Assembly: GCA_016185145.1 (NCBI GenBank)
Contig: JACPOB010000100.1
Span: 1 to 64,000, forward strand
Origin: Rhodospirillales bacterium
GTDB lineage: Bacteria > Pseudomonadota > Alphaproteobacteria > Reyranellales > Reyranellaceae
Direction: 5' to 3'
DNA length: 64,000 bases
Within the stretch, counting starts at the first letter, position 1; every line of letters starts with the position of its first letter. The notes under the pieces were generated by a model. That model had not been told where the DNA came from, made no database searches, and saw only the letters and a list, made by a program, of their open reading frames with translations. This document shows positions 3,648-51,089 of this stretch, piece after piece. Position numbers and translations under genes: made by a program.

Positions 3648-3786
3648 CTTCCTCCCCTTCGCGGACTCCGCGAAGGGGAGGTGTCCGCGAAGCGGACGGA
3701 GGGGTCATGGGCGCCACGACGGACCGCCCATGACCCCTCCGTCGGCGAAGACGCCGACACCTCCCCAGCTTCGCTGGGGAGGAAGG
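3648..3786. repeat. Compound palindromic element, family A, copy 1
   Basis: Three nested hairpins fill the gap before the dioxygenase gene. The outer hairpins have CCTCCCC...GGGGAGG arms (3651-3681 and about 3759-3783). The middle one pairs CATGGGCG with its partner and includes GGAGGGGTCATG against CATGACCCCTCC. The copy at 31500-31628 has the same three-part order. Half copies occur at 12141-12172 and 23005-23035. The long arms would form a cloverleaf-like structure in DNA or RNA. Confidence 0.85.
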
Positions 3787-21005: not shown

Positions 21006-21010
21006 CGGTC

Positions 21011-21086
21011 TCTTGCCGGACCGCGGGCCTCCAGGCCCGCCTCAAGATTCATGAGCGGGCCTGGAGGCCCGCGGTCCAGTAAGAGG
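21011..21086. repeat. Palindromic element, family C, copy 1
   Basis: Two long arms (core GGACCGCGGGCCTCCAGGCC) lie on either side of a small loop around CTCAAGATTCATGA. It fills the gap between the VOC stop at 21005 and the next ATG at 21092. It shares the GGACCGCG...CGCGGTCC ends with copies at 27738, 28786, 38167 and 43635. Confidence 0.85.
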
Positions 21087-22975: not shown

Positions 22976-23004
22976 CGAGTGAAGCTCGCCGCCCCGATCA
23001 TTTT

Positions 23005-23035
23005 CCTCCCCTGCGCGGAGCCCGCGCAGGGGAGG
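23005..23035. repeat. Half copy of palindrome family A
   Basis: Perfect 14-base arms (CCTCCCCTGCGCGG and its complement) around a three-base loop, 30 bases after the large hydrolase gene and 20 bases before the next ATG. Such a strong hairpin in a transcribed gap could reduce readthrough or stabilise the upstream message. Confidence 0.75.
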
Positions 23036-23054
23036 AAGGCTTTAGGAGAACGAC

Positions 23055-28773: not shown

Positions 28774-28785
28774 GTCTTGTCTCCC

Positions 28786-28841
28786 GGACCGCGCGCATGC
28801 TGCGCGCTCATGAACTTGAGCGCGCAGGATGCGCGCGGTCC
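28786..28841. repeat. Palindromic element, family C, copy 3
   Basis: GGACCGCGCGCAT...TGAGCGCGCAGGATGCGCGCGG-type arms, imperfect at two positions, lie between the two ATPase genes. The ribosome-binding site of the downstream gene starts directly beside the left arm, so the hairpin in the message could affect its translation. Confidence 0.8.
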
Positions 28842-28857
28842 AAAAGAGCATGAAAAG

Positions 28858-31499: not shown

Positions 31500-31628
31500 C
31501 TTCCTCCCCGCGCCAAGCGCGGGGAGGTGTCCGCGAAGCGGACGGAGGGGTCATGAGCGGCTGCAATGACACCCATGACCCCTCCGTCGCCGTATGACGG
31601 CGACACCTCCCCACTGCGTGGGGAGGCA
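31500..31628. repeat. Compound palindromic element, family A, copy 2
   Basis: It has the same three-part plan as 3648-3786: a CCTCCCC/GGGGAGG hairpin, then GTCCGCGAAGCGGACGGAGG with GGTCATG, a centre, the complementary CATGACCCCTCCGTC, and a last CCTCCCC hairpin. It lies between the binding-protein gene and its permease, where a hairpin could favour high binding-protein expression over the permeases. Confidence 0.85.
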
Positions 31629-34643: not shown

Positions 34644-34752
34644 ACCTCACCCTGAGGAGCGCACGCAGTGCGCGTCTCGAAGGGTGGGCAACATCGCGAC
34701 TGGTTCCCACCCTTCGAGACGCATCGCTGCGCGATGCTCCTCAGGGTGAGGT
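34644..34752. repeat. Palindromic element, family B, copy 1
   Basis: Outer arms ACCTCACCCTGAGGAGC and GCTCCTCAGGGTGAGGT enclose inner arms TCTCGAAGGGTGGG and CCCACCCTTCGAGA. Copies lie at 51035-51089 (inner part replaced) and 62809-62909 (left arm cut). It sits between convergent genes. Short open frames through such elements are often annotated as proteins in alphaproteobacteria, wrongly in my view. Confidence 0.88.
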
Positions 34753-34777: not shown

Positions 34778-34819
34778 CGCGCCACTTACGGCGGAGTTTA
34801 CTCCGCCTCTAGTGGCGCG
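34778..34819. repeat. Second hairpin between convergent genes
   Basis: Nested arms CGCGCCACT/AGTGGCGCG and GGCGGAGT/ACTCCGCC form a long stem-loop nine bases from the stop of the ThDP-enzyme gene. A fragment with GCGCGCCACTCC is seen at about 24905-24926. It could act as a two-way transcription stop, although it lacks a T run. Confidence 0.7.
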
Positions 34820-36570: not shown

Positions 36571-38166
36571 ATGCAGGCGGATTACGTGGTTGTCGGTGCC
36601 GGCTCGGCCGGTTGCGTGGTCGCGTCTCGACTGTCGGAAACGGGCGCCTCGGTGATCCTGCTGGAGGCCGGGCCCAGCGACTGGCATCCCATGATCCATA
36701 TCCCGGCCGGCATGCGATCACTGATCAGGAACCCGCTGGTCAACTGGAACTACACGACCGAGCCCGAGAAAGGCACCGGCGAGCGGCGCATGGAATGGCC
36801 GCGCGGACGCACGCTCGGCGGCTCGAGCTCGATCAACGGCATGCTCTATGTGCGCGGCGCGCCGGCCGATTTCGACGGCTGGGCGCAGATGGGGTGCCGC
36901 GGCTGGAGCTACGACGACGTGCTGCCCTACTTCAAGAAGTCCGAGCACTACGTGCAGGGCGGTGATCCCGAGGTGCGCGGCCAGGGAGGACCGCTCAAGG
37001 TCGAGGATTACCGCACCATCCTGCCGCTCACCCATCGCTTCGTTGAGGGCGCCCAGCAGGCAGGCTTCCCGTTCAACCCCGACCTCAACGGCACACAGCG
37101 GCAAGGCGTCGGCTACTCGCAGATGACGCGGCGCGGCCGCTTCCGCGGCTCGACGGCGCAGACTTTTCTGCGCGAAGCCAAAGGGCGCTCCAACCTGCGC
37201 GTCGAGACCGACGCGCAAGGCGGCAAGCTGATGTTCGAGGGCAAGCGCTGCGTCGGCGTCAGCTTCCGGCGCGGCGGCAACCTCACCGAGGTGCGCGCCA
37301 ATCGCGAGGTGATCGTGTCGGGCGGCACCATCAACTCGCCGCACATCCTGCAGATCTCGGGCATCGGCCCCGCCGCACACCTGCAGTCGCTCGGCATCCC
37401 GGTGGTGCACGACCTGCCAGGCGTCGGCGCCAACCTGATAGACCATTACGTGATCCGCGTGGTCCATCGCGTGCACGGCACGCCGACGGTGAACGAGATC
37501 GCGCGCTTTCCGCGCGTGCTGCCCGAGATCCTGCGCTTTGCCTTCACCGGCAAGGGCGCGCTCACTTTCGGCGTCACCACGGCGCAGGTATTCTGCGACA
37601 GCCGCGAGGGGCTCGCCTCGCCCGACCTGCAGCTGCTGTTCACGCCGGGCAGCACGCATCCCCTGAAGTTCGGCCAGCTCGACGAGCAGCCCGGCATGAG
37701 CTGCGTGGTCTGCGTCGTGAAGCCCGACAGCCGCGGCACCATCATGGCCGCCTCGGCCGATCCCTTCGCGCGGCCGGCCATCAAGCCCAACTATCTCACC
37801 GCGCACACCGACGAGCTGGCGCTGCTGGGCGGCACGCGCCATGTGCGCAAGATCTTCGCCGCGCCGGCGCTGGCGCAGCACAGCAGGGGCGAGATCCAGC
37901 CCGGGCCCGACATCGAGAGCGACGCCGACCTGCTGGCCTATGCCCGCCGCGCCGGCAACACGCTCTATCACCCGGTCGGCACCTGCAAGATGGGCGAGGA
38001 TCCCCGGGCGGTGGTCGATTCGCGCCTGCGCGTGCGCGGCGTAGAAGGCCTGCGCGTGATCGACGCCTCGGTGATGCCGACGCTGACGACCGGCAACACC
38101 AATGCGCCGACGATCATGATCGGCGAAAAGGGTGCCGAGATGATCGCGGCCGATGCACGTTCATGA
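36571..38166 (+). CDS. GMC family oxidoreductase (choline dehydrogenase-like)
   Basis: A 531-residue FAD enzyme. The N-terminal FAD motif is VVVGAGSAGCVVASRL, the GMC signatures are GRTLGGSSSINGMLYVRG and SGGTINSPHILQISGIGP, and the catalytic His lies near TLYHPVGTCKMG. Substrates in the family are alcohols such as choline or polyethylene glycol. The ATG at 36571 has GGAGAG upstream. It diverges from the ThDP-enzyme gene, and the two may form a pathway from alcohol to aldehyde or 2-oxo acid. Confidence 0.92.
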   Translation: MQADYVVVGAGSAGCVVASRLSETGASVILLEAGPSDWHPMIHIPAGMRSLIRNPLVNWNYTTEPEKGTGERRMEWPRGRTLGGSSSINGMLYVRGAPADFDGWAQMGCRGWSYDDVLPYFKKSEHYVQGGDPEVRGQGGPLKVEDYRTILPLTHRFVEGAQQAGFPFNPDLNGTQRQGVGYSQMTRRGRFRGSTAQTFLREAKGRSNLRVETDAQGGKLMFEGKRCVGVSFRRGGNLTEVRANREVIVSGGTINSPHILQISGIGPAAHLQSLGIPVVHDLPGVGANLIDHYVIRVVHRVHGTPTVNEIARFPRVLPEILRFAFTGKGALTFGVTTAQVFCDSREGLASPDLQLLFTPGSTHPLKFGQLDEQPGMSCVVCVVKPDSRGTIMAASADPFARPAIKPNYLTAHTDELALLGGTRHVRKIFAAPALAQHSRGEIQPGPDIESDADLLAYARRAGNTLYHPVGTCKMGEDPRAVVDSRLRVRGVEGLRVIDASVMPTLTTGNTNAPTIMIGEKGAEMIAADARS

Positions 38167-38234
38167 TCTTCCGGACCGCGAGCCTCCGGCTCGCTCATGA
38201 TCATGAGCGAGCCGGAGGCTCGCGGTCCGGAAGA
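38167..38234. repeat. Perfect 68-bp palindrome, family C, copy 4
   Basis: Two 34-base arms are exact complements with no spacer; each arm starts TCTTCCGGACCGCGAGCC. It begins on the base after the GMC stop codon and ends on the base before the convergent racemase stop codon, so it is the entire intergenic space. It would extrude as a cruciform, and both transcripts would end in a very stable hairpin. Confidence 0.95.
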
Positions 38235-38954
38235 CTATGAGAACACCTTCGGCCTCAGTCCGGCGTGGAACCAGGTGATCATCGAGTAGATGTCGTAGAC
38301 CGGCAGGCCCACCGCCTCCTGCAAGGCCGCTGCGTAGGGCGGCATGTTGGTGCATTCGAGCACGATGGCGCCGATGTCGGGATGGCGCTCCACAAGTCCC
38401 TTGCCGGCCTCGACGATGTCCTGCCGCGCAAGATCGACATCGAGGTCCTGCTTCTCGCCCTTGATCAGCACGCGGAAGAATTCCCGGCCGTTCTCGGTGC
38501 CGGCGATCGGCGCGTCGAGCGGCACGCCTGCTCCCTCGAGATGCGCCGGCGTCAGGCTCTTGGCGCTGATCGAAACGATACCGACGCGCTTGCCGGGCGG
38601 CAGGGTCGCCTGCACCCAGGGCACCTGCATCAACGACGACGTCGCCACCGGCACGCCGACGGCCGCCGCGATCTCGCGCTGGAAGATCGACAGGAAGCCG
38701 CAGTTGGTGGTGATCGCCTCGGCGCCGAGATCGACCAGGTCGGTCGCCGCGGCGACGAAATTCTGCAACAGGCCGGTCGCGCCGTTCAGCACGACCTTCT
38801 CCGGGCTGGCGCCGCGCACGACGCGGAACAGCACCGGGAACGGCCAGGTCGTGCCGTTGCCCATGTCGCCCGCAATGCGCGGGAAGCGCGCTTCCAGCAT
38901 CAGGATGCCGAGCGGCGCGCCGTAGATCGACTTGCCCCCTTTGGCGATACTCAT
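38235..38954 (-). CDS. Aspartate/glutamate racemase family protein
   Basis: A 239-residue protein. The two catalytic cysteines of the superfamily are visible, in AITTNCGFLS (about residue 87) and VLECTNMPPY (about residue 203). The superfamily includes amino-acid racemases, hydantoin racemases and arylmalonate decarboxylases. It starts one base after the TTT binding-protein stop, so they are one operon, and the imported compound may be its substrate. Confidence 0.85.
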   Translation of the reverse strand: MSIAKGGKSIYGAPLGILMLEARFPRIAGDMGNGTTWPFPVLFRVVRGASPEKVVLNGATGLLQNFVAAATDLVDLGAEAITTNCGFLSIFQREIAAAVGVPVATSSLMQVPWVQATLPPGKRVGIVSISAKSLTPAHLEGAGVPLDAPIAGTENGREFFRVLIKGEKQDLDVDLARQDIVEAGKGLVERHPDIGAIVLECTNMPPYAAALQEAVGLPVYDIYSMITWFHAGLRPKVFS

Positions 38955-43634: not shown

Positions 43635-43771
43635 CTTGCCGGAGCGCAGACCTCCAGGTCCGCTCATGCTCACCGTCTTCCGGACCGCGCTGGGTCGCGT
43701 CTAACGCGACCTTCTCGCGCGCTCACGACTCATGAGCGAGCCGGAGGCTCGCGGTCCGGAAGATCATGAGC
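43635..43771. repeat. Composite palindromic region, family C, copy 5
   Basis: It contains a left half-element with CCTCCAGGTCCGCTCATG, then an element with TCTTCCGGACCGCG and a right arm CGCGGTCCGGAAGATCATGA, with an inserted small hairpin GGTCGCGT/ACGCGACC in the middle. Its right arm matches the perfect palindrome at 38167-38234. It runs directly into the truncated alpha/beta-hydrolase start on the minus strand. Confidence 0.82.
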
Positions 43772-50157: not shown

Positions 50158-51045
50158 ATGCGCTTCGATCTCACCGACCTCCGCCTGTTCCGCCACGTCG
50201 CCGAGACCGGCAGCATCACGCACGGGGCGGAGCGCTCGCATCTCGCGCTGGCCTCGGCGAGCGCGCGCATCCGCGGCATGGAGGAGATGCTCGACGTGCC
50301 GCTGCTGCAGCGCGGCCGGCGCGGCGTGCGGCTGACCGATGCCGGGCGCAACCTGCTCGACCACGCCCGCATCGTGCTGCAGCAGGTCGACACCATGCGT
50401 GGCGAGCTTTCTGCCTATTCGCGCGGGCTGAAGGGCAGTGTGCGCGTGCTGGCCAACACCGCGGCGCTCTCCGAGCACCTGCCCAGGCTGCTGGCGGGTT
50501 TCCTGGCGGCCAATCCCACGATCGACCTCGATCTCGAGGACCGCGAGAGCCCGGCGATCGCCGCCGCCGTCGCGGCGGGCGACGCGGACATCGGCATCGC
50601 CTCGCAGACGGCGCTGGCCGGCGGCCTCGAAAGCCATCCGTTTCGGCCCGACCGGCTGGTGCTGATCGCGCCGGCCGGCCATCGGCTGGCGCGCCGCCGT
50701 CAGGTGGGTTTCGCCGAGCTGCTCGATCTCGATTTCGTCGGCCTGCCGCGCGGTACCGCGCTCGACGGGCACCTGGCGATGCAGGCGGCGCGGCTCGGCC
50801 GCATGCGCAAGCTGCGCGTCAGGGTAAGCAGCCTCGATGCGGTCTGCGCCATGGCAGCGGCGGCCGTAGGCGTCGCCATCGTGCCGGAAGCGGCGGCGCG
50901 CCGGCAGCGCCGCGGCCTGCCGCTCGCCATCGTCCGCATCGCCGAGCCGTGGGCCAACCGCGAGCTCATGCTCTGCGTGCGCGAGTCGCGGCGATTGTCG
51001 CGCCCCGCGAGGAAGCTGTTCGACGCGCTAAGGGCCTCACCCTGA
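50158..51045 (+). CDS. LysR family transcriptional regulator
   Basis: A 295-residue regulator with an N-terminal helix-turn-helix (TGSITHGAERSHLALASASARI) and a LysR effector domain. It is divergent from the TauE/SafE gene. The last codons, reading RASP and stop, are supplied by the family B palindrome (51035-51089), so the natural C-terminus may have been altered. The ATG at 50158 starts the conserved RFDLTDLRLFRHVAE. Confidence 0.9.
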   Translation: MRFDLTDLRLFRHVAETGSITHGAERSHLALASASARIRGMEEMLDVPLLQRGRRGVRLTDAGRNLLDHARIVLQQVDTMRGELSAYSRGLKGSVRVLANTAALSEHLPRLLAGFLAANPTIDLDLEDRESPAIAAAVAAGDADIGIASQTALAGGLESHPFRPDRLVLIAPAGHRLARRRQVGFAELLDLDFVGLPRGTALDGHLAMQAARLGRMRKLRVRVSSLDAVCAMAAAAVGVAIVPEAAARRQRRGLPLAIVRIAEPWANRELMLCVRESRRLSRPARKLFDALRASP

Positions 51046-51089
51046 GGAGCGGCCGTAGGCCGCGCTGCGCGCGGCTCCTCAGGGTGAGG
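51035..51089. repeat. Palindromic element, family B, copy 2
   Basis: Arms CCTCACCCTGAGGAGC and GCTCCTCAGGGTGAGG with an inner GGCCGTAGGCC and GCGCTGCGCGC part. It overlaps the 3' end of the LysR gene and supplies its stop codon. It lies between convergent genes. Confidence 0.88.

Follow-up and report, generated by a model that had tools for sequence, protein, structure and literature searches.

The 68-bp palindrome lying at positions 38167-38234 of the window (the whole stretch of 64,000 nucleotides that was analysed) is very probably a REPIN-like, non-coding and non-autonomous mobile element, composed of two inverted REP-type hairpins and mobilised by the RAYT P0001. What seemed an unstable one-off palindrome belongs, on this reading, to a large family of elements linked to RAYTs, of which a literature search returned no report in the genus Reyranella. 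The observations concern the anatomy of the element, its copy number, the occurrence of the same arms on both flanks of a RAYT gene, the covariation of the stems, the genomic context, the filled and empty sites found in relatives, and the co-occurrence with RAYT genes.

Anatomy of the palindrome and of its family

The initial annotation described the palindrome as perfect, spacer-less and filling the whole gap between two convergent genes, and both descriptions hold: the symmetry is exact over 34+34 bases with zero spacer (TCTTCCGGACCGCGAGCCTCCGGCTCGCTCATGA / TCATGAGCGAGCCGGAGGCTCGCGGTCCGGAAGA), and the stop codons of the two genes (TGA, 38164-38166; CTA as read for the minus-strand gene, 38235-38237) directly adjoin it. 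Complementarity extends to 38161-38240 once two mismatches are allowed. The features of the region are the following:

36571-38166, plus strand: GMC-family oxidoreductase gene (PF00732, PF05199; start inferred at MQADYVV)
38161-38200, plus strand: doublet, left arm (supported by the consensus of 116 arm flanks, by stem covariation and by the DNA fold)
from 38161, plus strand: left-arm outer TCATGA, holding the stop TGA 38164-38166
38167-38177, plus strand: left-arm TCTTCCGGACC
38178-38194, plus strand: left-arm hairpin GCGAGCC-TCC-GGCTCGC
38195-38200, plus strand: left-arm inner tag TCATGA
38201-38240, minus strand: right arm, inverted (arm-flank consensus, DNA fold)
38201-38206, minus strand: right-arm inner tag TCATGA
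38207-38223, minus strand: right-arm hairpin
38224-38234, minus strand: right-arm GGTCCGGAAGA
38235-38240, minus strand: right-arm outer CTATGA, holding the racemase stop as CTA
38235-38954, minus strand: convergent Asp/Glu-racemase-like gene, PRK07475 subfamily (PF01177, NF005679)

Folded as DNA, the element reaches -48.7 kcal/mol, against a mean of -14.5 for shuffled sequences (z -13.8); each 34-base arm is also a hairpin of its own with a 7-bp stem (GGACC-GCGAGCC-TCC-GGCTCGC-TCATGA; -8.2 and -8.6 kcal/mol for the single-arm DNA hairpins), so that two folds are available to the element, a single stem of 34 bp or a pair of 7-bp hairpins. The inverted arm pair is, in other words, a doublet of the REPIN type, made of two REP-type sequences in opposite orientation, each capable of forming a hairpin. 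The spacer between the two hairpins, TCATGATCATGA, is by chance self-complementary; together with a stem type common to both arms, this accounts for the perfect symmetry over 68 bp. A known structured RNA was rejected: the Rfam scan of the element returned only microRNA-type hairpin matches, none above the gathering score, of the kind to be expected from any long hairpin.

The genome is a draft (201 contigs, 7.77 Mb, 92% complete, 7.6% contaminated). The 80-bp query yielded 428 candidates at first look and 40 scored places at 91-100% identity, and the pattern GGACCGCG-N20-50-CGCGGTCC occurs 290 times in the 7.77 Mb, compared to three occurrences of the reversed control pattern. The lack of other copies, named in the initial annotation as an argument against its own proposal, is therefore contradicted by about 290 doublets, and a unique one-off element was rejected. 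The census of doublets and of their gene context covers 1.245 Mb of the 7.77 Mb and 58 doublets, in 45 of which the spacer is 12 or 13 nt long; other spacers break the perfection, and the three perfect 68-mers all carry the spacer TCATGATCATGA. With three exact cases among 58, perfection is an occasional outcome and defines no separate class of object; the argument that so unstable a palindrome must be exceptional is weak where, as here, the perfect copy is a chance product within a family whose spacers measure 12-13 nt.

The commonest stems (GCGAGCC, GCGAGCT, GCGCGCA, GCGGGCG and GCGCGCT) each occur with the matching complement. Over 27 distinct arms (24 from the census of the genome itself, plus three added stem types), 96.3% of the cells are paired, against 80.2% in shuffles, and the stem covariation score is 0.397, against 0.087 in shuffles (none of 500 reaches it), collapsing when slid. 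The same stem is present in both arms of 29 of the 58 doublets, where 8.4 are expected and the maximum in 10,000 permutations is 17; the unit is therefore the doublet as a whole rather than the single arm. Here again the family resembles REPINs, whose high-copy, extragenic unit is the doublet: there are 290 copies, 56 of the 58 examined are intergenic, and their arms are concordant. Nested palindromes are found in 11 of the 58 elements, compared to 8 of 2,000 random places, and several of them are arranged around a TCATG centre. Further members of the family in the window, none with an assigned strand, are:

21010-21085: same-family doublet in a tandem gap
28778-28849: same-family doublet, likewise in a tandem gap
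43679-43763: decayed doublet, right arm intact and left arm broken, beside a GGAGC-type arm

In the region 43640-43770, the decayed GGACC doublet and the GGAGC-type arm (CGGAGCGCAGACCTCCAGGTCCGCTCATG) are the remains of a palindrome within a palindrome.

The gap in relatives and the placement at gene ends

The site comparison among relatives that had been proposed at the outset revealed both filled and empty orthologous sites. The gap between the GMC oxidoreductase and racemase genes holds a palindrome in five of the six genomes compared, with differing sequences and families: in G020 the same convergent pair encloses a perfect palindrome in which four stem positions are changed, mirrored in both arms, while the outer motifs (TTCATGATCTTCC and GGAAGACTATGAGAAC) are identical; in G012 the gap contains a single 48-bp hairpin, in G054 a mosaic of two families, in G014 a hairpin of the CGCGCCACT type, and in G004 the same convergent genes are present with no element between them. 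The site of the 21010-21085 doublet is empty in G054, and that of 28778-28849 in both G054 and G014. Together with the roughly 290 doublets and the RAYT gene flanked by the same arms (see below), these sites favour active copying, one of the possibilities considered initially. Different palindromes in the same gap of neighbouring species also provide material on tolerance versus selection at gene ends.

It is possible, if rather less than probable, that the element did not insert in its symmetrical state and that local repair made it perfect afterwards, either through template switching at a palindrome with mismatches or through conversion by other copies in the genome. The G020 palindrome, still perfect in the same gap with identical outer motifs and four mirrored stem changes, would be explained in this way, as would the sharing of stems between arms far above chance; doublets moving as units, however, yield an equal concordance, and the arms are unlike in half of the doublets. 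An attempt to prove stem replacement within one insertion (G000 versus G020) failed, because the outer right flank CTATGAGAAC is also present in G014, where it adjoins a palindrome of another family, and two independent insertions at the gap are therefore possible.

As regards the ends of the elements, the outer TCATG is exact at 52 of the 116 arm ends; in relatives, the sequences of the empty sites have diverged too far for a distinction between a CATG target-site duplication and ends carried by the element. In G004, locus L216 (contig C123) carries GTCTTGCCGGGAAGAG in a gap where L219-L220 and L222 carry elements; it looks like the fused ends of an element after loss of the core.

Both stop codons at the gap fall within the conserved outer motif of the element, TCATGN-TCTTCC. 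The oxidoreductase gene ends with TCA TGA at 38161-38166 and, since the oxidoreductase genes of G012, G054 and G014 end without this last Ser codon, its final TCA TGA is plausibly the terminal motif of the element itself.

The placement of the doublets was analysed relative to 1,087 genes called with a custom-built hexamer model. Among the 58 doublets, 31 lie between convergent and 24 between tandem genes, one lies between divergent genes, one within a called gene and one at a contig edge; for the 56 doublets in intergenic gaps, the expectation based on intergenic length is 10.1 convergent, 30.2 tandem and 15.7 divergent, and the enrichment of convergent gaps, based on gap counts, corresponds to an odds ratio of 6.0 (p 4e-10). 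Known REPs are placed likewise (PMC3733652). This placement is compatible with avoidance of promoters combined with tolerance at 3' ends, and also with a function at 3' ends. A textbook intrinsic two-way terminator was rejected, given the absence of a T-run after the hairpin on both strands and a negative terminator scan at the element. In a broader form, it is unlikely, although worth considering, that selection keeps the palindrome as a two-way terminator or as a protector of the mRNA 3' ends of both convergent genes, whatever its origin: the RNA hairpin is very strong on both strands (about -100 kcal/mol for 141 nt, z near -11), convergent gaps are strongly favoured, and the same gap holds a palindrome in most of the genomes compared, albeit of differing sequence and family; on the other hand, the T-tract is absent on both sides, G004 maintains the same convergent genes without the element, and promoter avoidance plus insertion tolerance give the same placement.

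RAYT genes associated with the family

The RAYT search recommended in the initial annotation led to a RAYT gene bounded by arms of the same family. The genome contains two Y1_Tnp genes, P0001 (contig C179, locus L024) and P0002 (contig C58, locus L023). P0001 is flanked on one side by GGACC-GCGGGCC...GGCCCGC-TCATGAG and on the other, inverted, by GGACC-GCGGGCG...CGCCCGC-TCATGAG, both arms lying a few bases from the gene; P0002 lies between arms of a second family, CGCGCCACT...AGTGGCGCG, a member of which occurs in the window:

34778-34819, no assigned strand: second-family palindrome CGCGCCACT...AGTGGCGCG, of the P0002-flank type

Inverted arms pair at no fewer than 35 of 44 RAYT loci, a set that includes duplicates (some records are present in both collections) and an automatic search that missed some real arms, such as those seen by inspection at L131 and L023. 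The layout recurs in named Reyranella and related records, and the stem type tracks the relatedness of the RAYTs, those 62-100% identical to P0001 having mostly GGACC/GGAGC arms and those 54-60% identical mostly arms of the CGCGCCACT type.

P0001 matches the Pfam model PF01797 (Y1_Tnp) with 36.2 bits (cut-off 23), as P0002 also matches Y1_Tnp, and retains the HUH motif (NHVH) and the Tyr of YVESNP, NHVH and Y158 being invariant; the HUH and Tyr residues are also kept in P0002. Both proteins match the core of the E. coli TnpAREP 4ER8 (E 1e-4 for P0001 and 8e-11 for P0002). At the position aligned with Q95 of the E. coli protein, a GTAG contact following a conserved Trp, P0001 and its closest relatives have His, and P0002 has Gln; the residue may be linked to the changed tag (see below).

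Doublets and close RAYTs also occur together across the genus. Among 61 genus genomes, 18 encode a RAYT with an identity of 64% or more to P0001, and each of these has between 15 and 290 doublets; the remaining 43 hold mostly 0-5, some 8-59 (Mann-Whitney p ~8e-8 for doublet number by close RAYT, with phylogeny ignored, no tree used and the 64% threshold picked after inspection of the data); REPIN number is likewise linked to RAYT presence in E. coli (PMC8049555). The sharpest individual contrast comes from the close relative G004, whose racemase is 95% identical: it has two doublets versus four for the control, that is, background, and no Y1_Tnp match at all. The genus thus offers a natural contrast between 290 copies with a close RAYT and background in a relative without a Y1 transposase. 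Outside the genus, within the order, doublet counts are not clearly above the control.

The following points weigh against mobilisation by a RAYT: the canonical GTAG/GTGG tag of REPs is absent; P0001 scores 76.1 bits with the NCBIfam RAYT model NF047646, just below its cut-off of 80 (P0002 passes with 96.8); and some genomes without a P0001-like match still have 11-41 doublets, which calls for a contribution of other RAYTs or of relic copies. A classical MITE of the IS200/IS605 or DDE type, unrelated to RAYTs, would equally be a short inverted-repeat element devoid of coding capacity, and is nevertheless highly improbable, considering that the arms match the flanks of the RAYT genes and covary with RAYT relatives, that they are themselves hairpins, and that both P0001 and P0002 score far under the NCBIfam IS200 cut-off. 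Identical arms made by the assembler, for which the draft state of the genome and the repetitive nature of the element might speak, are scarcely credible for an element inside a 76.9-kb contig, whose gene pair encloses comparable elements in independent genomes and whose other copies keep unlike arms and odd spacers, which indicates that arms are not being collapsed.

Mobilisation by P0001 would proceed as follows. When the site is single-stranded, for example on the lagging-strand template, each arm would fold as a short hairpin; P0001, a Y1/HUH endonuclease, would recognise the hairpin and its tag, cleave beside them and join the doublet into another single-stranded site. Most of the surviving insertions would be those close behind the 3' ends of genes, particularly in convergent gaps, and in the present case the outer TCATGA and CTATGA of the element would supply or overlap both stop codons.

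The tag and the closest known systems

In REPs proper, the foot of the hairpin is marked by GTAG or GTGG (PMC8266576, PMC6006769). In the arms of this genome, as in those flanking RAYT genes, the feet are GGACC and TCATG and the canonical GTAG/GTGG tag is absent; TCATG is common to the GGACC, GGAGC and CGCGCCACT families, and the consensus outside the arms (116 arm flanks) is again TCATGN-TCTTCC. Strict membership of the REPs therefore fails on the tag, while every structural REPIN feature tested is present. Assignment to the GTAG REPs was rejected for lack of that tag; CGTC REPs, defined by CGTC at one end and by the absence of a dedicated transposase (PMC3733652), were also rejected, there being no CGTC foot and the arms flanking RAYT genes. 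Repeats without GTRG beside RAYT-like genes are already known, namely TIRtrons (PMC3733652), subclass 2.6 and class 3 (PMC6006769).

The closest likeness is to the REPIN, a REP doublet that forms one long hairpin or two short ones (Bertels and Rainey 2011, PMC3116915): both consist of REP-type hairpins in inverted orientation around a short spacer, are intergenic and present in hundreds of copies, go with a RAYT gene that the same repeats enclose, can fold in two alternative ways, and have conserved, covarying arms. The differences are the absence of GTRG and a spacer of 6 or 12-13 nt only, owing to which a doublet here can become a perfect 68-bp palindrome; the GI REPIN of P. fluorescens spans about 71 bp between 16-mers (PMC3116915). 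GTAG/CGTC REPs and TIRtrons (Di Nocera et al. 2013, PMC3733652) are likewise short palindromes found mostly between convergent or tandem genes, many of them 20 bp or less from gene 3' ends, and RAYT-like genes bounded by inverted repeats in which GTAG may be missing are a further shared trait; the present family differs from the REPs of that study in the TCATG tag with GGACC at the other foot, and from its "moderately abundant" TIR families in a copy number (about 290) that is far higher. With TnpAREP and the REPtron of E. coli, S. maltophilia and Marinomonas (PMC8266576), it has in common a single Y1/HUH protein whose hairpin substrates, predicted ones in the case of P0001, flank the gene, perfectly palindromic stems like those of group 3, and the sequence match of P0001 and P0002 to 4ER8; the guide tetranucleotide differs, and Q95 is replaced by His in P0001 (FWHADYFDR) and not in P0002. 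With the TnpAY1 of HuH subclass 2.6 and class 3 (PMC6006769), the common ground is a RAYT-like gene whose flanking multi-copy hairpins lack GT[AG]G; subclass 2.6, however, is mainly found in Bacteroidetes, and class 3 is marked by a CnGA foot and by the motif Y----Q, where P0001 has YVESNP.

A speculative and on balance doubtful extension is that of a lineage of RAYTs in which the guide has been recoded from GTRG to TCATG and whose hairpin families would settle beside CATG(A)-type sites. In such a case, overlapping convergent stop codons and the TCATGA centres of other REPINs would be among the targets, and concentrically nested palindromes, like the 11 of the census, as well as genes with element-supplied stop codons, would follow. 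The presence of several hairpin families with a TCATG foot and no GTRG guide makes the cleavage and the target choice of RAYTs directly testable.

Other palindromes are present in the window. The segments 34646-34750 and 51035-51089 belong to another family, combining CCTCACCCTGAGGAGC with CGTCTCGAAGGGTGG, whose core motif occurs 51 times, on both strands, in the 1.245 Mb; one copy fills a gap where G014 and G047 have GGACC doublets. Inverted repeats based on CCTCCCCTTCGCGGA and GACGGAGGGGTCATG, found at 3648-3746, 23003-23037 and 31541-31588, apparently constitute a further intergenic palindrome family.
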